Source: Candidatus Desulfatibia vada (lineage in GTDB: Bacteria; Desulfobacterota; Desulfobacteria; Desulfobacterales; UBA11574). From it: 39,819 nt of DNA. The translations under genes were made by a program, and so were the position numbers. The stretch's first letter is position 1, and each line of letters begins with the position of its first letter. Under the pieces are notes generated by a model. That model was not told the DNA's origin and made no database searches. It was given only the letters and a program-made list of their open reading frames with translations. The stretch spans positions 1 to 39,819 of the forward strand of contig JACNIG010000447.1 of assembly GCA_014383215.1 (NCBI GenBank), written 5' to 3'. Positions 28,978 through 35,603 of this stretch are shown here, in pieces.

Positions 28978-29006
28978 TTGATTTTCTCGCTTTGGCGGGA
29001 TAATAA
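28978..29006 (+). promoter_or_regulatory. Candidate purN promoter
   Basis: TTGATT (28978-28983) and TAATAA (29001-29006), spaced by 17 bases, lie about 35 bases before the purN start. The match to consensus is moderate and nothing else supports it. Confidence 0.3.
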
Positions 29007-29040
29007 TTTTAAGACGCTTGACATATTAGGGAGCCATGCT

Positions 29041-29850
29041 ATGGACCGTAAAATTCGTATTGGGGCGCTGATATCAGGGGGCGGCAGCAACCTTCAGGCC
29101 ATCATGGACGCCTGCGAGGAAGGAATGATCAGCGGTGAAATAGTCTTTGTGGGTGCGGATAATCCGGCTGCAGGCGGTCTTGAAAAAGTACGCAGCAGAG
29201 GAATACCAACATTTGTAGTCGATTACGTATCAATCATAAAACAGTTCAAAAAGGGACAGGGCAAGGCCGTGCTGCCTGAGGATTTCGATCTTGACGACGT
29301 CCTGGCAAAGCAATCTCTGTTCGCGGCGGATTCCGATCCCGAAAAAGTCAGAAACTTCATAATGACCCGGGCGGTGGCTGAAGCTAAATTACTTGAAGCG
29401 ATGGAGCCTCACCCCTTCGACTTGCTGGTGCTGGCAGGCTTTATGAGAAATCTAACACCGTATTTTATCGACCGGATAAATACGGTCCCCGGCAGTCTCC
29501 GCATCATGAACATCCATCCGGCGCTGTTGCCCGCATTTCCCGGAATTGACGGTTATGGGGATACTTTCAGGTACGGCTGCAAGATCGGGGGGTGTACGGT
29601 ACACTTTGTCGATTACGGTGAAGATTCCGGCCCGATTATCGGTCAAAAGGCTTATGAAATAACTGCAGATGATACCATCGAAACCATTCGCGCAAAGGGC
29701 CTCAAGCTGGAGTGGTCCCTATATCCGGATTGTGTGCGGCTGTTTGCCGAAGGCCGTCTGCAAACGGTTCGGATGACCTATCCGTTAAAAAGCGGCAAAA
29801 CCTACGAAGGGACCGTGGTGAAAATAACCCCGCCGCCAGAAACCTTTTAA
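29041..29850 (+). CDS. purN: Phosphoribosylglycinamide formyltransferase-like protein (PurN) with an insertion
   Basis: A 269-residue formyltransferase-fold protein expected to transfer formyl from 10-formyltetrahydrofolate to GAR in purine synthesis. Catalytic residues align: N158 and H160 in 'MNIHPALLPAFPG' and D195 in 'DYGEDSGPII'; the phosphate loop is 'GALISGGGSNLQAI'. It is about 55 residues longer than E. coli PurN. About 40 of these lie between 'GIPTFVVDY' (about 55-62) and 'FDLLVLAGFM' (about 126-135), in a helical charged stretch. The start is ATG 29041, seven bases after GGGAG; an upstream extension is open but unsupported. Whether the insertion changes the substrate is unknown. 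Confidence 0.88.
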   Translation: MDRKIRIGALISGGGSNLQAIMDACEEGMISGEIVFVGADNPAAGGLEKVRSRGIPTFVVDYVSIIKQFKKGQGKAVLPEDFDLDDVLAKQSLFAADSDPEKVRNFIMTRAVAEAKLLEAMEPHPFDLLVLAGFMRNLTPYFIDRINTVPGSLRIMNIHPALLPAFPGIDGYGDTFRYGCKIGGCTVHFVDYGEDSGPIIGQKAYEITADDTIETIRAKGLKLEWSLYPDCVRLFAEGRLQTVRMTYPLKSGKTYEGTVVKITPPPETF

Positions 29851-30232
29851 GCCTTCCAGCTTTTCCATAAATCAGAATAAATCTGACACATTTTTTTCAA
29901 TTAACGGTCGTTCTGTGTGACGGTTGTAACCATGATGGCCGCTATCTACTAGATTTTTTTGGTGCTCCCCAAGATACGATACAATCGCATTCTTGTATGA
30001 TTTACGATTTTCTTGTGTGTTTTGTGTAAAGCTGATACCCATTCCCCGGGTAACGATTTTATCATCAGGGACGTTGCTATTGGACCAGACTACCTCGGGT
30101 ATGTTCCCGTCTTTCTTGAGGACCTTATTGTTTTTTATCGGTCTATCTGTAAAAAACTTAAGTCAAAAAAGATTAAAGTTTTTATTGATACGGTCGATAA
30201 GAAATTAAACATACAACAGATTTGATTTGCTG
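29851..30232 (+). other. Intergenic region before the riboswitch, no firm gene
   Basis: A frame ending at 30225 reads plausibly in its last part ('YVPVFLEDLIVFYRSICKKL', then 'KIKVFIDTVDKKL') but has no good start or ribosome binding site. I do not recognise it. It may be the tail of a decayed gene. No clear promoter for the riboswitch was found; TTGATA at 30185-30190 is the best -35-like sequence. Confidence 0.3.
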
Positions 30233-30313
30233 AAGGGCAAACCTTCCGAAAGGTAGGGGCGCAAAGCTTCCGGTCTAAGTCCGTTTCAAGCGGATAAGAT
30301 AGCGGGGTTGCTA
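30233..30313 (+). promoter_or_regulatory. Cyclic di-GMP-I riboswitch aptamer (GEMM-I)
   Basis: The sequence follows the GEMM-I consensus closely. It has the core AGGGCAAACC (30234-30243), then P2 as CCTTCC-GAAA-GGTAGG with a GNRA tetraloop. GGCGCAAAGC comes next, then the CTTCCGGTCTAAG tetraloop receptor, P3 as TCCG...CGGA, and the closing AGCGGGGTTGC (30301-30311). Compared with the Vibrio Vc2 aptamer, the ligand-contacting position in AGGGC is G, which predicts c-di-GMP rather than the A seen in cyclic AMP-GMP sensors. GCGGGGTTGCTA (30302-30313) can pair with TAGCAACCCGC (30325-30335) as an antiterminator that excludes the terminator downstream, so ligand binding should turn transcription off. 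The next gene in the same direction is over 2.3 kb away. Confidence 0.92.
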
Positions 30314-30330
30314 AGCCAAGGAAATAGCAA

Positions 30331-30361
30331 CCCGCTTCTCTTCTCGGAGGCGGGTTTTTTT
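30331..30361 (+). terminator. Riboswitch-controlled terminator
   Basis: CCCGCTTC and GGAGGCGGG form an eight- to nine-base-pair stem with a short loop, followed by seven T residues (30355-30361). Its left arm, CCCGC, is shared with the antiterminator that uses the 3' end of the aptamer. It lies only 24 bases from the stop codon of the oppositely oriented traB-like gene. In the reverse direction there is no T-run, so it is not built to end that gene. Confidence 0.88.
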
Positions 30362-30384
30362 ATTTAAATTTTCATATGCAAAAG

Positions 30385-31548
30385 TTAGAGGACTTTCACC
30401 ATTAAAGGTATCGCCACAAACGTCCCTATGGAACTGCCCAGATTGGTAAATACCACTACCAGCAGGATGCGGGTTACCTTGTTTTTCCAAAAGCCCCTGA
30501 TGGAAAGAATGTCCTCCGACAGGTTTTCAAAATCCCTTACCTTGGGTTTGCGGGAAAAGGCTTCCACCAGCCCGGAAACCCAGCCGGCCGCAATCATGGG
30601 GTTCAGAGAAGTTAAAGGAGCCGCCAGAATCGAAGAAAGGATTGTCAGAGGGTGAGCCAGGGCGATGACGGCACCCAGGCCGGCCAGAATACCATTGGCC
30701 AGAATCCACCATACGATCATATCCTTGCCTGCGTGGGAACCGCCCTTATAAAAGCCCGCAACAATCAGTATTATTATGGCCACAGGGATCATCCATTTAA
30801 AAACAACCGATGCTTTTCCTTTGGGCGGAATTTGCTTGAGGGCCTCAAAATCTATGTCTTTGTTCCAGTTGTTCTTGATACCGGGCACATGACCGGCACC
30901 GACGACCGCAACGATTTTTTTGCCGGGAGCCGTGCGGATTCTGTGGGTCAAATACAGGTCTCTTTCATCGATCAGGATATCTTTTAAGACCGGCAGTGAT
31001 TTGCCGACATCGGCGAGCAGAGACTGGAGCACATCTTCTTGCTTCATCTTCTCAATATCTTCTTCGCTGATATCTTCAATTTGTCCAAGCGACAAAAGGA
31101 ATTGAAACAAAAGTTTGAGTTTGCTCCACAGTCCCATAACGCGCCAGGTCTTCAGCAGAGTGATACGGATATCCCGGTCGGCAAGGTGTATGGACGCGCC
31201 AACAGCCTGGCCGGCTTCAATGGACTTTATCATCTCCTCGCCGGGTTTGATGTCAAATTTTTTGGCTATCCGTTTCTGAAGTGATGCCAGCAGGAGATTC
31301 GAAAGCAAAAGGAAGGATTTTTTCTCCTTGATAACTTTGACGATATCCATCTCCCGCCAAAGCTCTTTCTGACTGATAGTCTGATACCTGGATTCGCACA
31401 GTTCAACGCAGACTGTGTCCGGTTTTTCTGTTTCGATAACCTGGACCGCCAGCCGGGCACTTTCACTGGAGACGTGGGCGGTCCCTACGAGAATGACCTC
31501 TTTGTCTTCAAATACTAAACGATCTATGTTATTGGTGTTGTTAATCAT
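30385..31548 (-). CDS. TraB/PrgY/GumN-family membrane protein
   Basis: A 387-residue protein with the TraB fold: 'VILVGTAHVSSESARLAVQV' at the N-terminus, 'TVCVELCESRYQ', and 'IVAVVGAGHVPGIKNNW' near 215-230. The C-terminal third has several membrane segments ('WMIPVAIIILIVAGFY', 'WILANGILAGLGAVIALAHP', 'ILLVVVFTNLGSSIGTFVAI'). Bacterial and archaeal members are poorly characterised; Enterococcus TraB/PrgY blocks a pheromone peptide, and the conserved GxxH motifs suggest a metal-dependent hydrolase. The ATG at 31548 lacks a clear ribosome binding site. It follows the NorQ-like ATPase by about 90 bases on the same strand. A riboswitch on the other strand points into its 3' end. Confidence 0.85.
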   Translation of the reverse strand: MINNTNNIDRLVFEDKEVILVGTAHVSSESARLAVQVIETEKPDTVCVELCESRYQTISQKELWREMDIVKVIKEKKSFLLLSNLLLASLQKRIAKKFDIKPGEEMIKSIEAGQAVGASIHLADRDIRITLLKTWRVMGLWSKLKLLFQFLLSLGQIEDISEEDIEKMKQEDVLQSLLADVGKSLPVLKDILIDERDLYLTHRIRTAPGKKIVAVVGAGHVPGIKNNWNKDIDFEALKQIPPKGKASVVFKWMIPVAIIILIVAGFYKGGSHAGKDMIVWWILANGILAGLGAVIALAHPLTILSSILAAPLTSLNPMIAAGWVSGLVEAFSRKPKVRDFENLSEDILSIRGFWKNKVTRILLVVVFTNLGSSIGTFVAIPLMVKVL

Positions 31549-31642
31549 CAAAATTCGTTATATAATTCCAATTCGAGTTACGGGTTTTTAGCGATAGATA
31601 ACCATAACTATCACATTGGCCATGTCAATACAAAAGGAAAGA

Positions 31643-32461
31643 TTAGAATATGTCTTCGATCAAATCGCTGAGCGTCTCTTGCAGGCGGGCATCATCGGTC
31701 AGCGGCAGGCATATGGCCGAGCGGCAAGCCCGGTGGACCGGAATGCCTCGCCGGATCATCTGGGCGGCATAAATCAAAAGGCGCGTGCTGGCTCCTTCGG
31801 TCAGGCCGTGTTCACGAATGTTGCGGATTTTAGCAGCCAGAGACACCAACTTTAAAGCGCTTTGGGAGTCGATATTCCCTTCATGGGCGACGATCTCGGC
31901 TTCTTTTTCAGCTGCGGGATAATCGAATTGGATGGAAACAAACCGCTGGCGCGTGCTCTGCTTGAGATCTTTTAATACGGATTGATATCCGGGGTTATAG
32001 GATATCACTACCATGAAATCGGGATGGGCCGGGATGATCTCGCCTTTTTTGTCGATGGATAGAGTCCGGCGCATATCGGTCAAGGGGTGGATCACCACGG
32101 TGGTATCCTTGCGGGCTTCCACAATCTCGTCCATATAACAGATGGCGCCCATCCGCACGGCCCTCGTCAAGGGGCCGTCCACCCATATGGTTTCATCCTT
32201 TTTCAAAAGGTAACGTCCCAGCAGATCGGATGCAAACAGGTCTTCATGGCAGGCCACCGTGATCAGGGGACGCGTTAACCGATAAGACATGTATTCGACA
32301 AAGCGGGTCTTGCCGCAGCCGGTCGGCCCTTTGAGCATCACCGGCAGCCTGGCGTCATAGGCGGCCTCAAACAGGCTGATTTCGTCACCGGCAGACAGAT
32401 AATACGGTTCTTTTTCTATGAAATAGCTACTGGTACCGGGTTGTTTTTTTTCAATGGTCAT
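31643..32461 (-). CDS. AAA+ ATPase of the NorQ/CbbQ/GvpN (MoxR-like) family
   Basis: A 272-residue ATPase of the type that activates or remodels metalloenzymes together with a VWA partner (NorQ-NorD, CbbQ-CbbO). Walker A is GPTGCGKT (45-52), Walker B '[16 protein letters not shown]' (about 107-122), sensor 1 is '[13 protein letters not shown]' and the arginine-finger region '[15 protein letters not shown]'. The C-terminal lid includes '[18 protein letters not shown]'. The gene faces away from a NorD/CbbO-like gene, although such pairs are usually codirectional. No nitric oxide reductase or RuBisCO gene is in the window, so its client is unknown. Confidence 0.93.
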
Positions 32462-32583
32462 TGGTCACTCTTTTCAATAATAACTGCTTCATTGATATAG
32501 TTTGGCTTTAACTTTATCAAGAAAATTATCATAGGCGCTTTTTTTTGCTAACGCCGGTGGTTACGTTCTAAGGCCTTTTCCTT

Positions 32584-32676
32584 TTGACATCATTACGTTT
32601 TTATCGTAACTATCTTAAAATGAAATAGATCTAAATTTTCCTATAAAGAATCCCCCCTCTCTCCCCTTGAGGGGAG
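32584..32676 (+). promoter_or_regulatory. Upstream region of the VWA gene: -35 box, small operator-like palindrome and leader hairpin
   Basis: TTGACA (32584-32589) is followed by the inverted repeat TTACG...CGTAA (32593-32609) and a weak -10-like TAACTA at a 17-base spacing. Nearer the gene, CTCCCC-TTGA-GGGGAG (32661-32676) forms a perfect six-base-pair hairpin. Its 3' arm is the only Shine-Dalgarno-like sequence before the ATG at 32690, 13 bases away. Hidden in the stem it could dampen translation. The promoter call is weak. Confidence 0.35.
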
Positions 32677-32689
32677 AAAACTTAGTATT

Positions 32690-35524
32690 ATGCCCCATCG
32701 TAACAATAAACATCTAAAGCAGCTGGCGATTGCCGATCCGGATCTGGCCGGAGAGGTTCAAAGCATCCTTGCACAAAAAACGTCTCCGGCTTCTGATCGT
32801 GACATCGCCCTGCTGGTAGACGAGACCCTGTGGGCGCTCTCTGAGGAGATATCTTTCGGCCGGGAGGTAGCCTTGGGTTATGCCGGCCTTAGCGGCGAAG
32901 CCGACGCGCAGATGATAGCGCGATACCGTGATCTGGTTCGCGAATTCGGCCGCAAAGGACCGACGATGGGACGGATCATGGCGACCCATCTGGTGCCGGT
33001 GTGCAAATACGGCGACAACCGGCTTCTTAAACATTTTCTACACACCCTTGACGTTATGCAATCCAAGGGTTCCTATACCCTCAAAGATCCCCTCGAAGCA
33101 TTGTCGGAGTTATTAAACTCCCAAGACCGTGAATCGGCATCCGCTTACCTTCAGCTGCTGGCCGATACCTTTGCCGGGGAGCTGTCCTATGTTCAATGCC
33201 AGCATTTTGCCCACATTCTGCCCAGAGCCGTGCTGGGCTTTGCCCCCTTAAGGCGTATATGGCAAATGGAACAATTGCGGCGCGTCGTCAAGACCGATGT
33301 TCGTCTGACCGACTCCTTGCTGGACGGCCTTGAAAAAGGGCTCCATCTGCTTTCCAAAGATTCTTTAAACCGCTTTGTAGCGCTTGGTCTCGATAAGCTG
33401 AAGCGCAGCCGCAAGTCGGCGGCAAAATTTCTGTCATTGGAATCAAAGCTTGGTGCTGATACTTTCGCACAGATGCAGGTGGTTGTTCCTTTTTCACATC
33501 TTCAGGCACAGTTGAACCGTTACGTGCGTGCTCGTACCGGCCTGGCGATATCCGTACGGCCGCTGTCGGATCTGCCGGAAGCATTGTTGAAAGCGGACAG
33601 GCAGAGAGCCCTGGCGTGTTCAGACGGCAAATTTATTTATCTGCCCGCTGAGATCAGCACGTTTCCCGACAAGGAAGAAAACATAAACCTTTTCAAATGT
33701 CTCACCAGGCTGGAAGCCGGTCTTTATGAATGCAACACCTTCGACTTTGACTTGGAAAAAGCTTTGGAACGCTGCCAGTCGATTGTGGATTGCGGATTGA
33801 GGATTGCGGATTTGAATGCGTTGAATATTGCGCCCGATTTTGTCCAAAATCTAAAATCCAAAATCCAAAATCAGAAAAACCTGTCCGATCTGGAGCGTTT
33901 TTTCGATTTATTTCCGATCCCGGAGCTGGCTGCCGACCTTTTTACGGTTTTCGAACACGGACGCCTAAAGATCATGCTCGGCAAACTATATCCGGGCCTT
34001 ATCCGGCAAACATTGCCCCTGCTATGCCGGGAAGCCATGCGCATGCTGAATACGGCAACACCCGTGGGCCTCGTTACTCTCCTGTATCTGTGGATCGCCC
34101 TTGAGATTGATGTTCAAAAAAAGCTGGACGTCGAAAAAGTACTTATCGATCACGCCGCTAAGATTTCAGCACGGTTTGAAGAGGCGATAGCTGTCGATGA
34201 TACGGTGGAGACCTGTGCTGAAATGGTAGCTGCCGGCTATAAGGATGTGGAGAGGCTTTTACAGCAAACCGCACCGGACAAAAGGCTAAAAGAATGTTAC
34301 GAGTCGATGCTGACGCCCTTCGGCCGCAGGTTAAGACCCGATCTTTTTTTCTCAACCTACCGGCATTTTGAGAAAATTGCAGTCAAATTGAAAGCTCAGC
34401 TTAAAGACAAAGAACTGCGGGTTTATAAATCGGACATCCGTCGACACCTGATCGCCGCAAATGGTTCCATTTCCCGTGAAGACCTTCAGGCGATGATCCT
34501 CAGCCCGAAAAAAGATCAAGAGGCCGGCGCACAACATGTTCAACAAACCGTGGACCTGTCCTGGCTCGATCTTTCCAAAATCTTTGGCCCCCGGGATCCG
34601 GTGTCGGTTGTCGGCGATGACGTCACCGGGCCTGTTTTCTGGTACCCCGAATGGGACTGCGGCCTGCAGGATTATCTTGCAGCTCACGTGAGGGTGCTGG
34701 ATAGAAATTTACCCATGGTAGAGGGCGACTTTTATTGCAATACCCTCACAAAACACGCAGGATTGATAAAAATCATCCGCTATGCCTTTGAACTTTTAAA
34801 GCCCGAGGGCCTTGTCAGATTACGACAGTGGGTCGAAGGGGATGAGTTCGATTACCGGGCGCTTTTGGATTTTGCCATGGATAAAAAAGCAGGCCGAATA
34901 CCCTCTGATCGACTCTATATCAAGCGCATCAAACAAGTGCGCGATGTTGCCGTGCTGCTTTTGGTCGATCTTTCGCGCTCAACCGCCAACACCGTGAACG
35001 GCTCGCAGGCAACGGTGTTGGACGTTGAAAAAGAAGCCATCGTCCTGTTCTGTGAAGCTCTTGAAGTTGTGGGAGACGCTTTTGCCATTGCCGGATTTTC
35101 CGGCACCGGCCGCCTGGGGGTTGATTACTTTCGTGTCAAGGGATTTGATGAAACCATGAATGATACCATTAAACAACGCATCAATGCCGTTGCTCCACAA
35201 CGCAGCACCCGGATGGGGGGTGCCATCCGGCATGCGACCTGCCAGCTGGAGAAGATGGCTGCAAAAGTTCGTTTGCTGATCATTCTGGGCGATGGTTTTC
35301 CAAACGATGTTGACTACAAACGAGACTATGCCATTTTAGACACCGGCAAAGCCATCTTCGAAGCACATTCCAAAGACATCTACACCCATGCCATCACCGT
35401 TAATATGGCATCAGACCCTAAACTTGATGATCTTTTCGGAAATGTTCGCCACAACGTCATATCCGATGTCCGTGAACTGCCCGACAAACTGCTGCGGATC
35501 TATGGGGAGCTGACCCGGCATTAA
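32690..35524 (+). CDS. Large VWA-domain protein of the NorD/CbbO type
   Basis: A 944-residue protein with a long helical N-terminal part and a C-terminal von Willebrand factor A domain (about 750-944). The MIDAS is D760-L-S762-R-S764, followed by 'GFSGTGRLGVDYFRVKGFDE', 'APQRSTRMGGAIRHA' and 'KVRLLIILGDGFPNDVDY'. Proteins of this class pair with NorQ/CbbQ AAA+ ATPases to insert metals into or reactivate enzymes; the divergent neighbour at 31643-32461 is the obvious partner. Residues about 365-396 are encoded by a word-iterated palindromic element inserted in frame. The two-component reading is family knowledge; the target enzyme is unknown. Confidence 0.9.
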   Translation: MPHRNNKHLKQLAIADPDLAGEVQSILAQKTSPASDRDIALLVDETLWALSEEISFGREVALGYAGLSGEADAQMIARYRDLVREFGRKGPTMGRIMATHLVPVCKYGDNRLLKHFLHTLDVMQSKGSYTLKDPLEALSELLNSQDRESASAYLQLLADTFAGELSYVQCQHFAHILPRAVLGFAPLRRIWQMEQLRRVVKTDVRLTDSLLDGLEKGLHLLSKDSLNRFVALGLDKLKRSRKSAAKFLSLESKLGADTFAQMQVVVPFSHLQAQLNRYVRARTGLAISVRPLSDLPEALLKADRQRALACSDGKFIYLPAEISTFPDKEENINLFKCLTRLEAGLYECNTFDFDLEKALERCQSIVDCGLRIADLNALNIAPDFVQNLKSKIQNQKNLSDLERFFDLFPIPELAADLFTVFEHGRLKIMLGKLYPGLIRQTLPLLCREAMRMLNTATPVGLVTLLYLWIALEIDVQKKLDVEKVLIDHAAKISARFEEAIAVDDTVETCAEMVAAGYKDVERLLQQTAPDKRLKECYESMLTPFGRRLRPDLFFSTYRHFEKIAVKLKAQLKDKELRVYKSDIRRHLIAANGSISREDLQAMILSPKKDQEAGAQHVQQTVDLSWLDLSKIFGPRDPVSVVGDDVTGPVFWYPEWDCGLQDYLAAHVRVLDRNLPMVEGDFYCNTLTKHAGLIKIIRYAFELLKPEGLVRLRQWVEGDEFDYRALLDFAMDKKAGRIPSDRLYIKRIKQVRDVAVLLLVDLSRSTANTVNGSQATVLDVEKEAIVLFCEALEVVGDAFAIAGFSGTGRLGVDYFRVKGFDETMNDTIKQRINAVAPQRSTRMGGAIRHATCQLEKMAAKVRLLIILGDGFPNDVDYKRDYAILDTGKAIFEAHSKDIYTHAITVNMASDPKLDDLFGNVRHNVISDVRELPDKLLRIYGELTRH
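33782..33877 (+). repeat. Word-iterated palindrome inserted in frame in the VWA gene
   Basis: The left arm repeats a GGATTGC-like word four times (GATTGTGGATTGCGGATTG...). The right arm repeats its complement-like AAAATCC word (CCAAAATCTAAAATCCAAAA...). The arms match at about 21 of 29 positions. Translated in the gene's frame the element gives 'CGLRIADLNALNIAPDFVQN', then 'LKSKIQNQKN', a peptide type seen where such repeats fall in coding sequence. It has no stop codon and keeps the frame on both sides. Confidence 0.8.
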
Positions 35525-35603
35525 AAACTGCAAAGCCATATCGACCAAATTTTCTCGATATTTATCATATATGTATTATAGTATGCAGAATAAAAGTGAA
35601 CTA

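Follow-up and report, generated by a model that had tools for sequence, protein, structure and literature searches.

Within a 39,819-nt stretch of the genome of Candidatus Desulfatibia vada (Desulfobacterales; referred to here as the window), we found a c-di-GMP-I (GEMM-I) riboswitch of the OFF type behind a sigma-28 promoter, which we think was orphaned by a rearrangement in which the gene it controlled was lost (a reading to which we give a probability of about three in four). The riboswitch points at the 3' end of an oppositely oriented traB-family gene, an arrangement that looks like an accident of a single genome and not like conserved antisense control. The original prediction for this locus had proposed antisense control of traB and had named a remnant whose gene was lost as the alternative; a leader remnant past the terminator, a cut PilZ gene and the gene-bearing paralogues of the switch lead us to favour the latter.

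A cmscan search against Rfam returned RF01051 (GEMM-I) as the sole family matched in the window, at 76.1 bits (cut-off 35 bits; E-value 2.3e-13) and over model positions 1–87, the full length of the model. This confirms the aptamer proposed originally, which was placed with its start at 30233; the true start lies 7 nt earlier, giving an aptamer at 30226–30315 on the plus strand. The base equivalent to reference GEMM-I nucleotide 20, taken as RF01051 model position 11 by our own mapping, is a G, as in the c-di-GMP type. As an A20G swap turns GEMM-I selectivity from cGAMP to c-di-GMP (PMC6456294), specificity for cGAMP is ruled out by this base. Within the expression platform, GCGGGGUUGCUA (30302–30313) pairs with UAGCAACCCGCU (30325–30336) to form an antiterminator (30302–30336, plus strand; −16.4 kcal/mol for the region 30300–30338), which competes with an intrinsic terminator at 30329–30361 on the same strand (stem 30329–30356, T run to 30361; −17.5 kcal/mol). 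Together, the cmscan match and the folding energies bear out the claim that aptamer, antiterminator and terminator are all complete. Because the antiterminator pairing uses up the 3' aptamer strand, bound ligand would favour termination, and the OFF-type logic suggested for the element was right. With a score above the curated cut-off, a full-length aptamer and a linked expression platform, the element belongs to RF01051 and is, by aptamer and platform sequence, a c-di-GMP-I riboswitch. The antiterminator pairing is kept in the copy on contig G000:C320 despite base changes on both sides. Swapping arms between copies hardly altered the mean pairing energy (−12.6 versus −13.3 for own arms), so covariation support is confined to individual copies such as that one. 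Cd1 of Clostridioides difficile, an OFF switch used here for comparison (PMC9262584), is likewise a transcriptional GEMM-I riboswitch with a full-length aptamer, G20 and an antiterminator on the 3' aptamer strand; unlike riboswitches of the Cd1 type, the window copy is followed by no gene in the sense direction.

Directly 5' of the riboswitch, positions 30174–30200 of the plus strand read TAAAGTTTTTATTGATACGGTCGATAA, a sigma-28/FliA promoter consisting of TAAA, 15 bases and GTCGATAA, in which a single −10 base deviates from the consensus TAAA-N15-GCCGATAA; 0.11 such sites would be expected in the window. This promoter, together with a fragment of a PilZ gene upstream, had been overlooked when the riboswitch itself was recognised. 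Among 17 GEMM-I copies aligned from this and related genomes, 16 have a sigma-28 element at approximately the same distance, versus 0.04 expected by shuffling, and the lone copy without one stands second in a tandem pair. The genome also carries two genes of the FliA family that exceed the curated cut-off (TIGR02479, 269 and 264 bits), and thus has both the promoter motif and the FliA gene by which membership of a FliA regulon was judged. It holds 12 GEMM-I riboswitches, eleven besides that of the window. Among the genes behind the promoter-riboswitch units are those for a flagellar rod/hook-type protein, for response regulators and for small proteins that are uncharacterised; in a sister species (G001) fliA itself lies behind such a unit, which suggests c-di-GMP feedback onto the sigma factor. 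Judged by these shared parts, the window riboswitch is one unit of a set predicted to be controlled by FliA plus c-di-GMP.

Several other arrangements were seen in the course of this comparison. The FliA-promoted c-di-GMP-I set recurs in the same genome and in relatives (e.g. loci L001, L003, L005, L007, L008, L010, L011 and L031). On G000:C320 (13944–14196; L005 and L006), a tandem of two complete GEMM-I riboswitches, with one terminator each, shares a single sigma-28 promoter and stands 5' of a secreted-protein-like gene. Tandem arrays of c-di-GMP-I riboswitches are usually reported as pairs; a longer array, on G032:C109 (690–1206; L247), has six c-di-GMP-I-type aptamers in a row over ~520 nt, four of them listed above the gathering score, and precedes a 201-aa ORF whose N-terminus is signal-like. 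The window itself has a second sigma-28-like site, TAAATATCGAGAAAATTTGGTCGATAT, at 35538–35564 on the minus strand, which is directed antisense into the 3' end of a 944-aa ORF (32690–35524).

That 944-aa ORF is the first plus-strand ORF of gene size past the riboswitch terminator, which upholds the statement that no plus-strand gene follows for 2.3 kb. The ORF has only a weak DUF58 match and adjoins, in divergent orientation, a minus-strand gene for a CbbQ/NirQ/NorQ-type AAA ATPase (the two spanning 31643–35524), a combination that resembles a MoxR/VWA-type pair. Immediately downstream of the switch lies the traB-family membrane protein gene (30385–31551, minus strand; PF01963 128.6 bits, TIGR00261 355 bits), and read-through would enter it at its 3' end, just as the geometry had been described. 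From the end of the aptamer to the 3' end of traB the distance is 70 nt, within the survey limit of 500 nt for an antisense-acting riboswitch. Control in cis of a downstream sense gene, which is usual but not required in RF01051, was not found here. Two small plus-strand ORFs were rejected as genes: one past the terminator (30428–30655) was dismissed as a shadow ORF of traB, and another of 70 aa (30013–30225) has no Pfam match and overlaps both the PilZ fragment and the promoter.

When the next gene was scored for ~30 GEMM-I copies in this and related genomes (~10 further loci, in which the core pattern was not found, being left out), it lay on the opposite strand only for the window copy, setting aside the uninformative calls at L004 (misplaced by the script) and at L123, L128 and L147 (short minus-strand ORFs overlapping the aptamer). 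The other scored copies are followed by a sense-strand gene, usually ~0–470 nt away and in one case at 696 nt. The closest copy, on G006:C281 in another genus of the same family, is identical to the window copy at 87 of 90 bases in the aptamer and 28 of 33 in the terminator; its next gene, of 107 aa, begins 92 nt past the aptamer. The best match to this 107-aa protein in the present genome is a weak one, encoded behind another riboswitch on contig C203. Since G006:C281 represents a different genomic setting, in which the switch adjoins what we read from the translation as an apparent AbiEi-type regulator, its switch is a homologue and not a positional orthologue. A plus-strand gene right after the terminator in related genomes, which the original prediction had named as evidence against its own reading, is therefore what the closest copies of the switch possess, albeit at another chromosomal position.

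Traces of rearrangement were found on both sides of the unit. Between the terminator and the traB stop codon, positions 30362–30384 (plus strand) match the leader of paralogous genes at 18 of 23 bases in register (none of 200,000 shuffles was as good) and the leader of another copy at 17 of 23 (4 of 200,000 shuffles), consistent with their being what is left of the leader between the terminator and a downstream gene since lost. On the other side, the PilZ-domain gene (29875–30102, minus strand) is a C-terminal fragment corresponding to residues 117–192 of a 192-aa ORF in the sister species, with the N-terminal part gone; it is 96% identical to that intact gene (G001:C570; PF07238 43.8 bits), which likewise lies beside purN. 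Identity between sister and window is ~99% from purN to 30098 and ~90% over the promoter region, which in the sister also adjoins the PilZ gene and has an altered sigma-28 site. The sister contig then ends within a repeat just past the promoter region, and for this reason we do not claim that the sister species has lost the aptamer. The repeat (G001:C570 1–73, with copies in G000, G001 and G006) is a short element with terminal TTTGATTTGGGCAACAGCCCGTCAAG, probably a MITE, often found as inverted pairs ~150 nt apart.

The surroundings of traB in other genomes were then compared with those in the window. The purN gene (phosphoribosylglycinamide formyltransferase; 28978–29850, plus strand; TIGR00639 161 bits) is the ancestral convergent neighbour of traB: the two lie close together in 61 of the traB loci that were examined, and in 48 of these 61 they are convergent. 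Because this neighbourhood is found in many relatives, the flanks of the window locus are ancestral and the riboswitch unit sits inside them. For the same reason, and with both genes present here, an assembly chimera is an unlikely source of the junction. By cmscan, GEMM-I was found beside traB at none of 60 loci, made up of 18 traB loci of relatives plus two sister contigs, 20 from a wider genome collection and 20 more, some of these loci coming from one and the same genome listed under different names. When the traB 3' flanks of 110 loci were searched for the core motif, nothing was returned besides the window and a single further site, which cmscan failed to confirm. The last 104 bases of the sister traB are 95% identical to those in the window, and are followed by a repeat and then by other genes, with no switch. 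An HDOD gene beside traB in the sister was considered as an informative junction and set aside: in this genome the orthologue lies on a different contig, which makes the sister junction itself a rearrangement. The conservation of riboswitch, orientation and traB on which the original prediction would have been checked was thus not seen at the loci scanned, and neither a conserved arrangement with the target nor a ligand-related target, as looked for in an antisense-acting riboswitch, was found. As far as can be seen, the riboswitch-traB arrangement is private to this genome.

Taken together, these data point to the following history. Units in this lineage are ordered as FliA promoter, GEMM-I aptamer, antiterminator/terminator, leader and gene, and appear to gate flagellar and other genes: FliA would start the transcript, and binding of c-di-GMP would stabilise the aptamer, free the terminator and end transcription. 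One such unit, with an adjoining PilZ gene on the opposite strand, probably once lay between convergent purN and traB, until a rearrangement left only the C-terminal part of the PilZ gene and fused the leader past the terminator with the traB 3' end. A gene presumably followed the switch at this position; the intermediate, with switch and gene between purN and traB, is seen in no genome and the sister contig ends in the repeat, so we infer the lost gene from the paralogues. The promoter is presumed to be in use. If it works, FliA-active cells with high c-di-GMP would make a terminated RNA of ~155 nt, and low c-di-GMP would yield read-through antisense to traB, any such remaining transcription presumably being a by-product. 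With aptamer, antiterminator and terminator intact and the promoter near consensus, present activity is possible. The intact terminator logic had also been taken as a sign of recent or present use, which is a weak argument given a sister that is ~99% identical next to the locus. At that identity, the switch has probably been an orphan for too short a time to show decay: ~1% divergence would predict one or two changes in the switch, so intactness cannot separate a remnant from a functional element.

Readings in which the geneless RNA has a function of its own were weighed against an orphaned switch. In its general form, such a reading has the flagellar sigma factor and c-di-GMP jointly control this RNA, which would silence traB at low c-di-GMP or act as a short, c-di-GMP-buffering RNA in motile cells at high c-di-GMP; we regard this as unlikely. 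The buffering version by itself, a stand-alone c-di-GMP-binding small RNA of ~155 nt from FliA promoter to terminator that would serve as a sink or reservoir, draws on a proposal made for merRNA of Bdellovibrio bacteriovorus, a c-di-GMP riboswitch RNA that lacks a conserved downstream ORF and comes from an organism whose FliA regulon is large (PMC3627812). The window RNA has the same parts and likewise lacks a conserved downstream ORF, and at this locus the FliA promoter motif is explicit. However, merRNA is 445 nt long, extremely abundant and not listed with a FliA promoter (PMC3627812), whereas the window RNA is short, predicted from sequence and derived from a recently orphaned unit. With the orphan state not conserved, and eleven other GEMM-I aptamers in the genome, a stand-alone role seems quite improbable.

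The silencing version requires that, in motile cells (FliA active, low c-di-GMP), read-through past 30361 lowers TraB and that the terminator relieves this when c-di-GMP is high. Promoter, aptamer, antiterminator and terminator are complete and correctly oriented for such control. The original prediction had called riboswitch-controlled antisense RNAs rare, which needs qualifying, as c-di-GMP shows the strongest enrichment of any riboswitch class in antisense orientation (152 cases; PMC9943018). The same survey holds precedents for other ligands, namely the antisense-acting S-box of Clostridium acetobutylicum and cobalamin/pocR of Listeria, which also lie at the 3' end of an opposite-strand gene and act by terminator-controlled read-through (PMC9943018). 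In contrast to these, the window switch is not conserved with its target and no relation between ligand and target is known. It fits instead the fortuitous cases adjoining rearranged genes in that survey, in which riboswitches near transposases and pseudogenes were judged to be of this kind (PMC9943018). The junction occurs in this genome only, the sister traB precedes a repeat, and both the leader remnant and the truncated PilZ gene indicate rearrangement. TraB-family proteins are not known to be linked with motility or c-di-GMP, which also counts against a regulatory role. Antisense control of traB as the function of the switch is therefore unsupported, and we consider it decidedly unlikely. 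That a mobile or duplicated copy arrived geneless, so that no gene was ever lost at the site, would suit the abundance of similar paralogues on different contigs and in different genera, and the repeat-rich neighbourhood, but sits so poorly with a leader homologous to those of gene-bearing copies, and with a promoter region shared with the sister species and likewise beside a PilZ gene, that we hold it to be highly improbable.

An orphaned switch at this locus would mean that an antisense-looking riboswitch can arise through loss of its sense gene, which calls for caution in surveys that count antisense-oriented c-di-GMP riboswitches as regulators. The locus also brings out a broader pattern within this Desulfobacterales family, in which many c-di-GMP-I riboswitches lie behind sigma-28 promoters, so that FliA and c-di-GMP seem to gate late flagellar and associated genes together.
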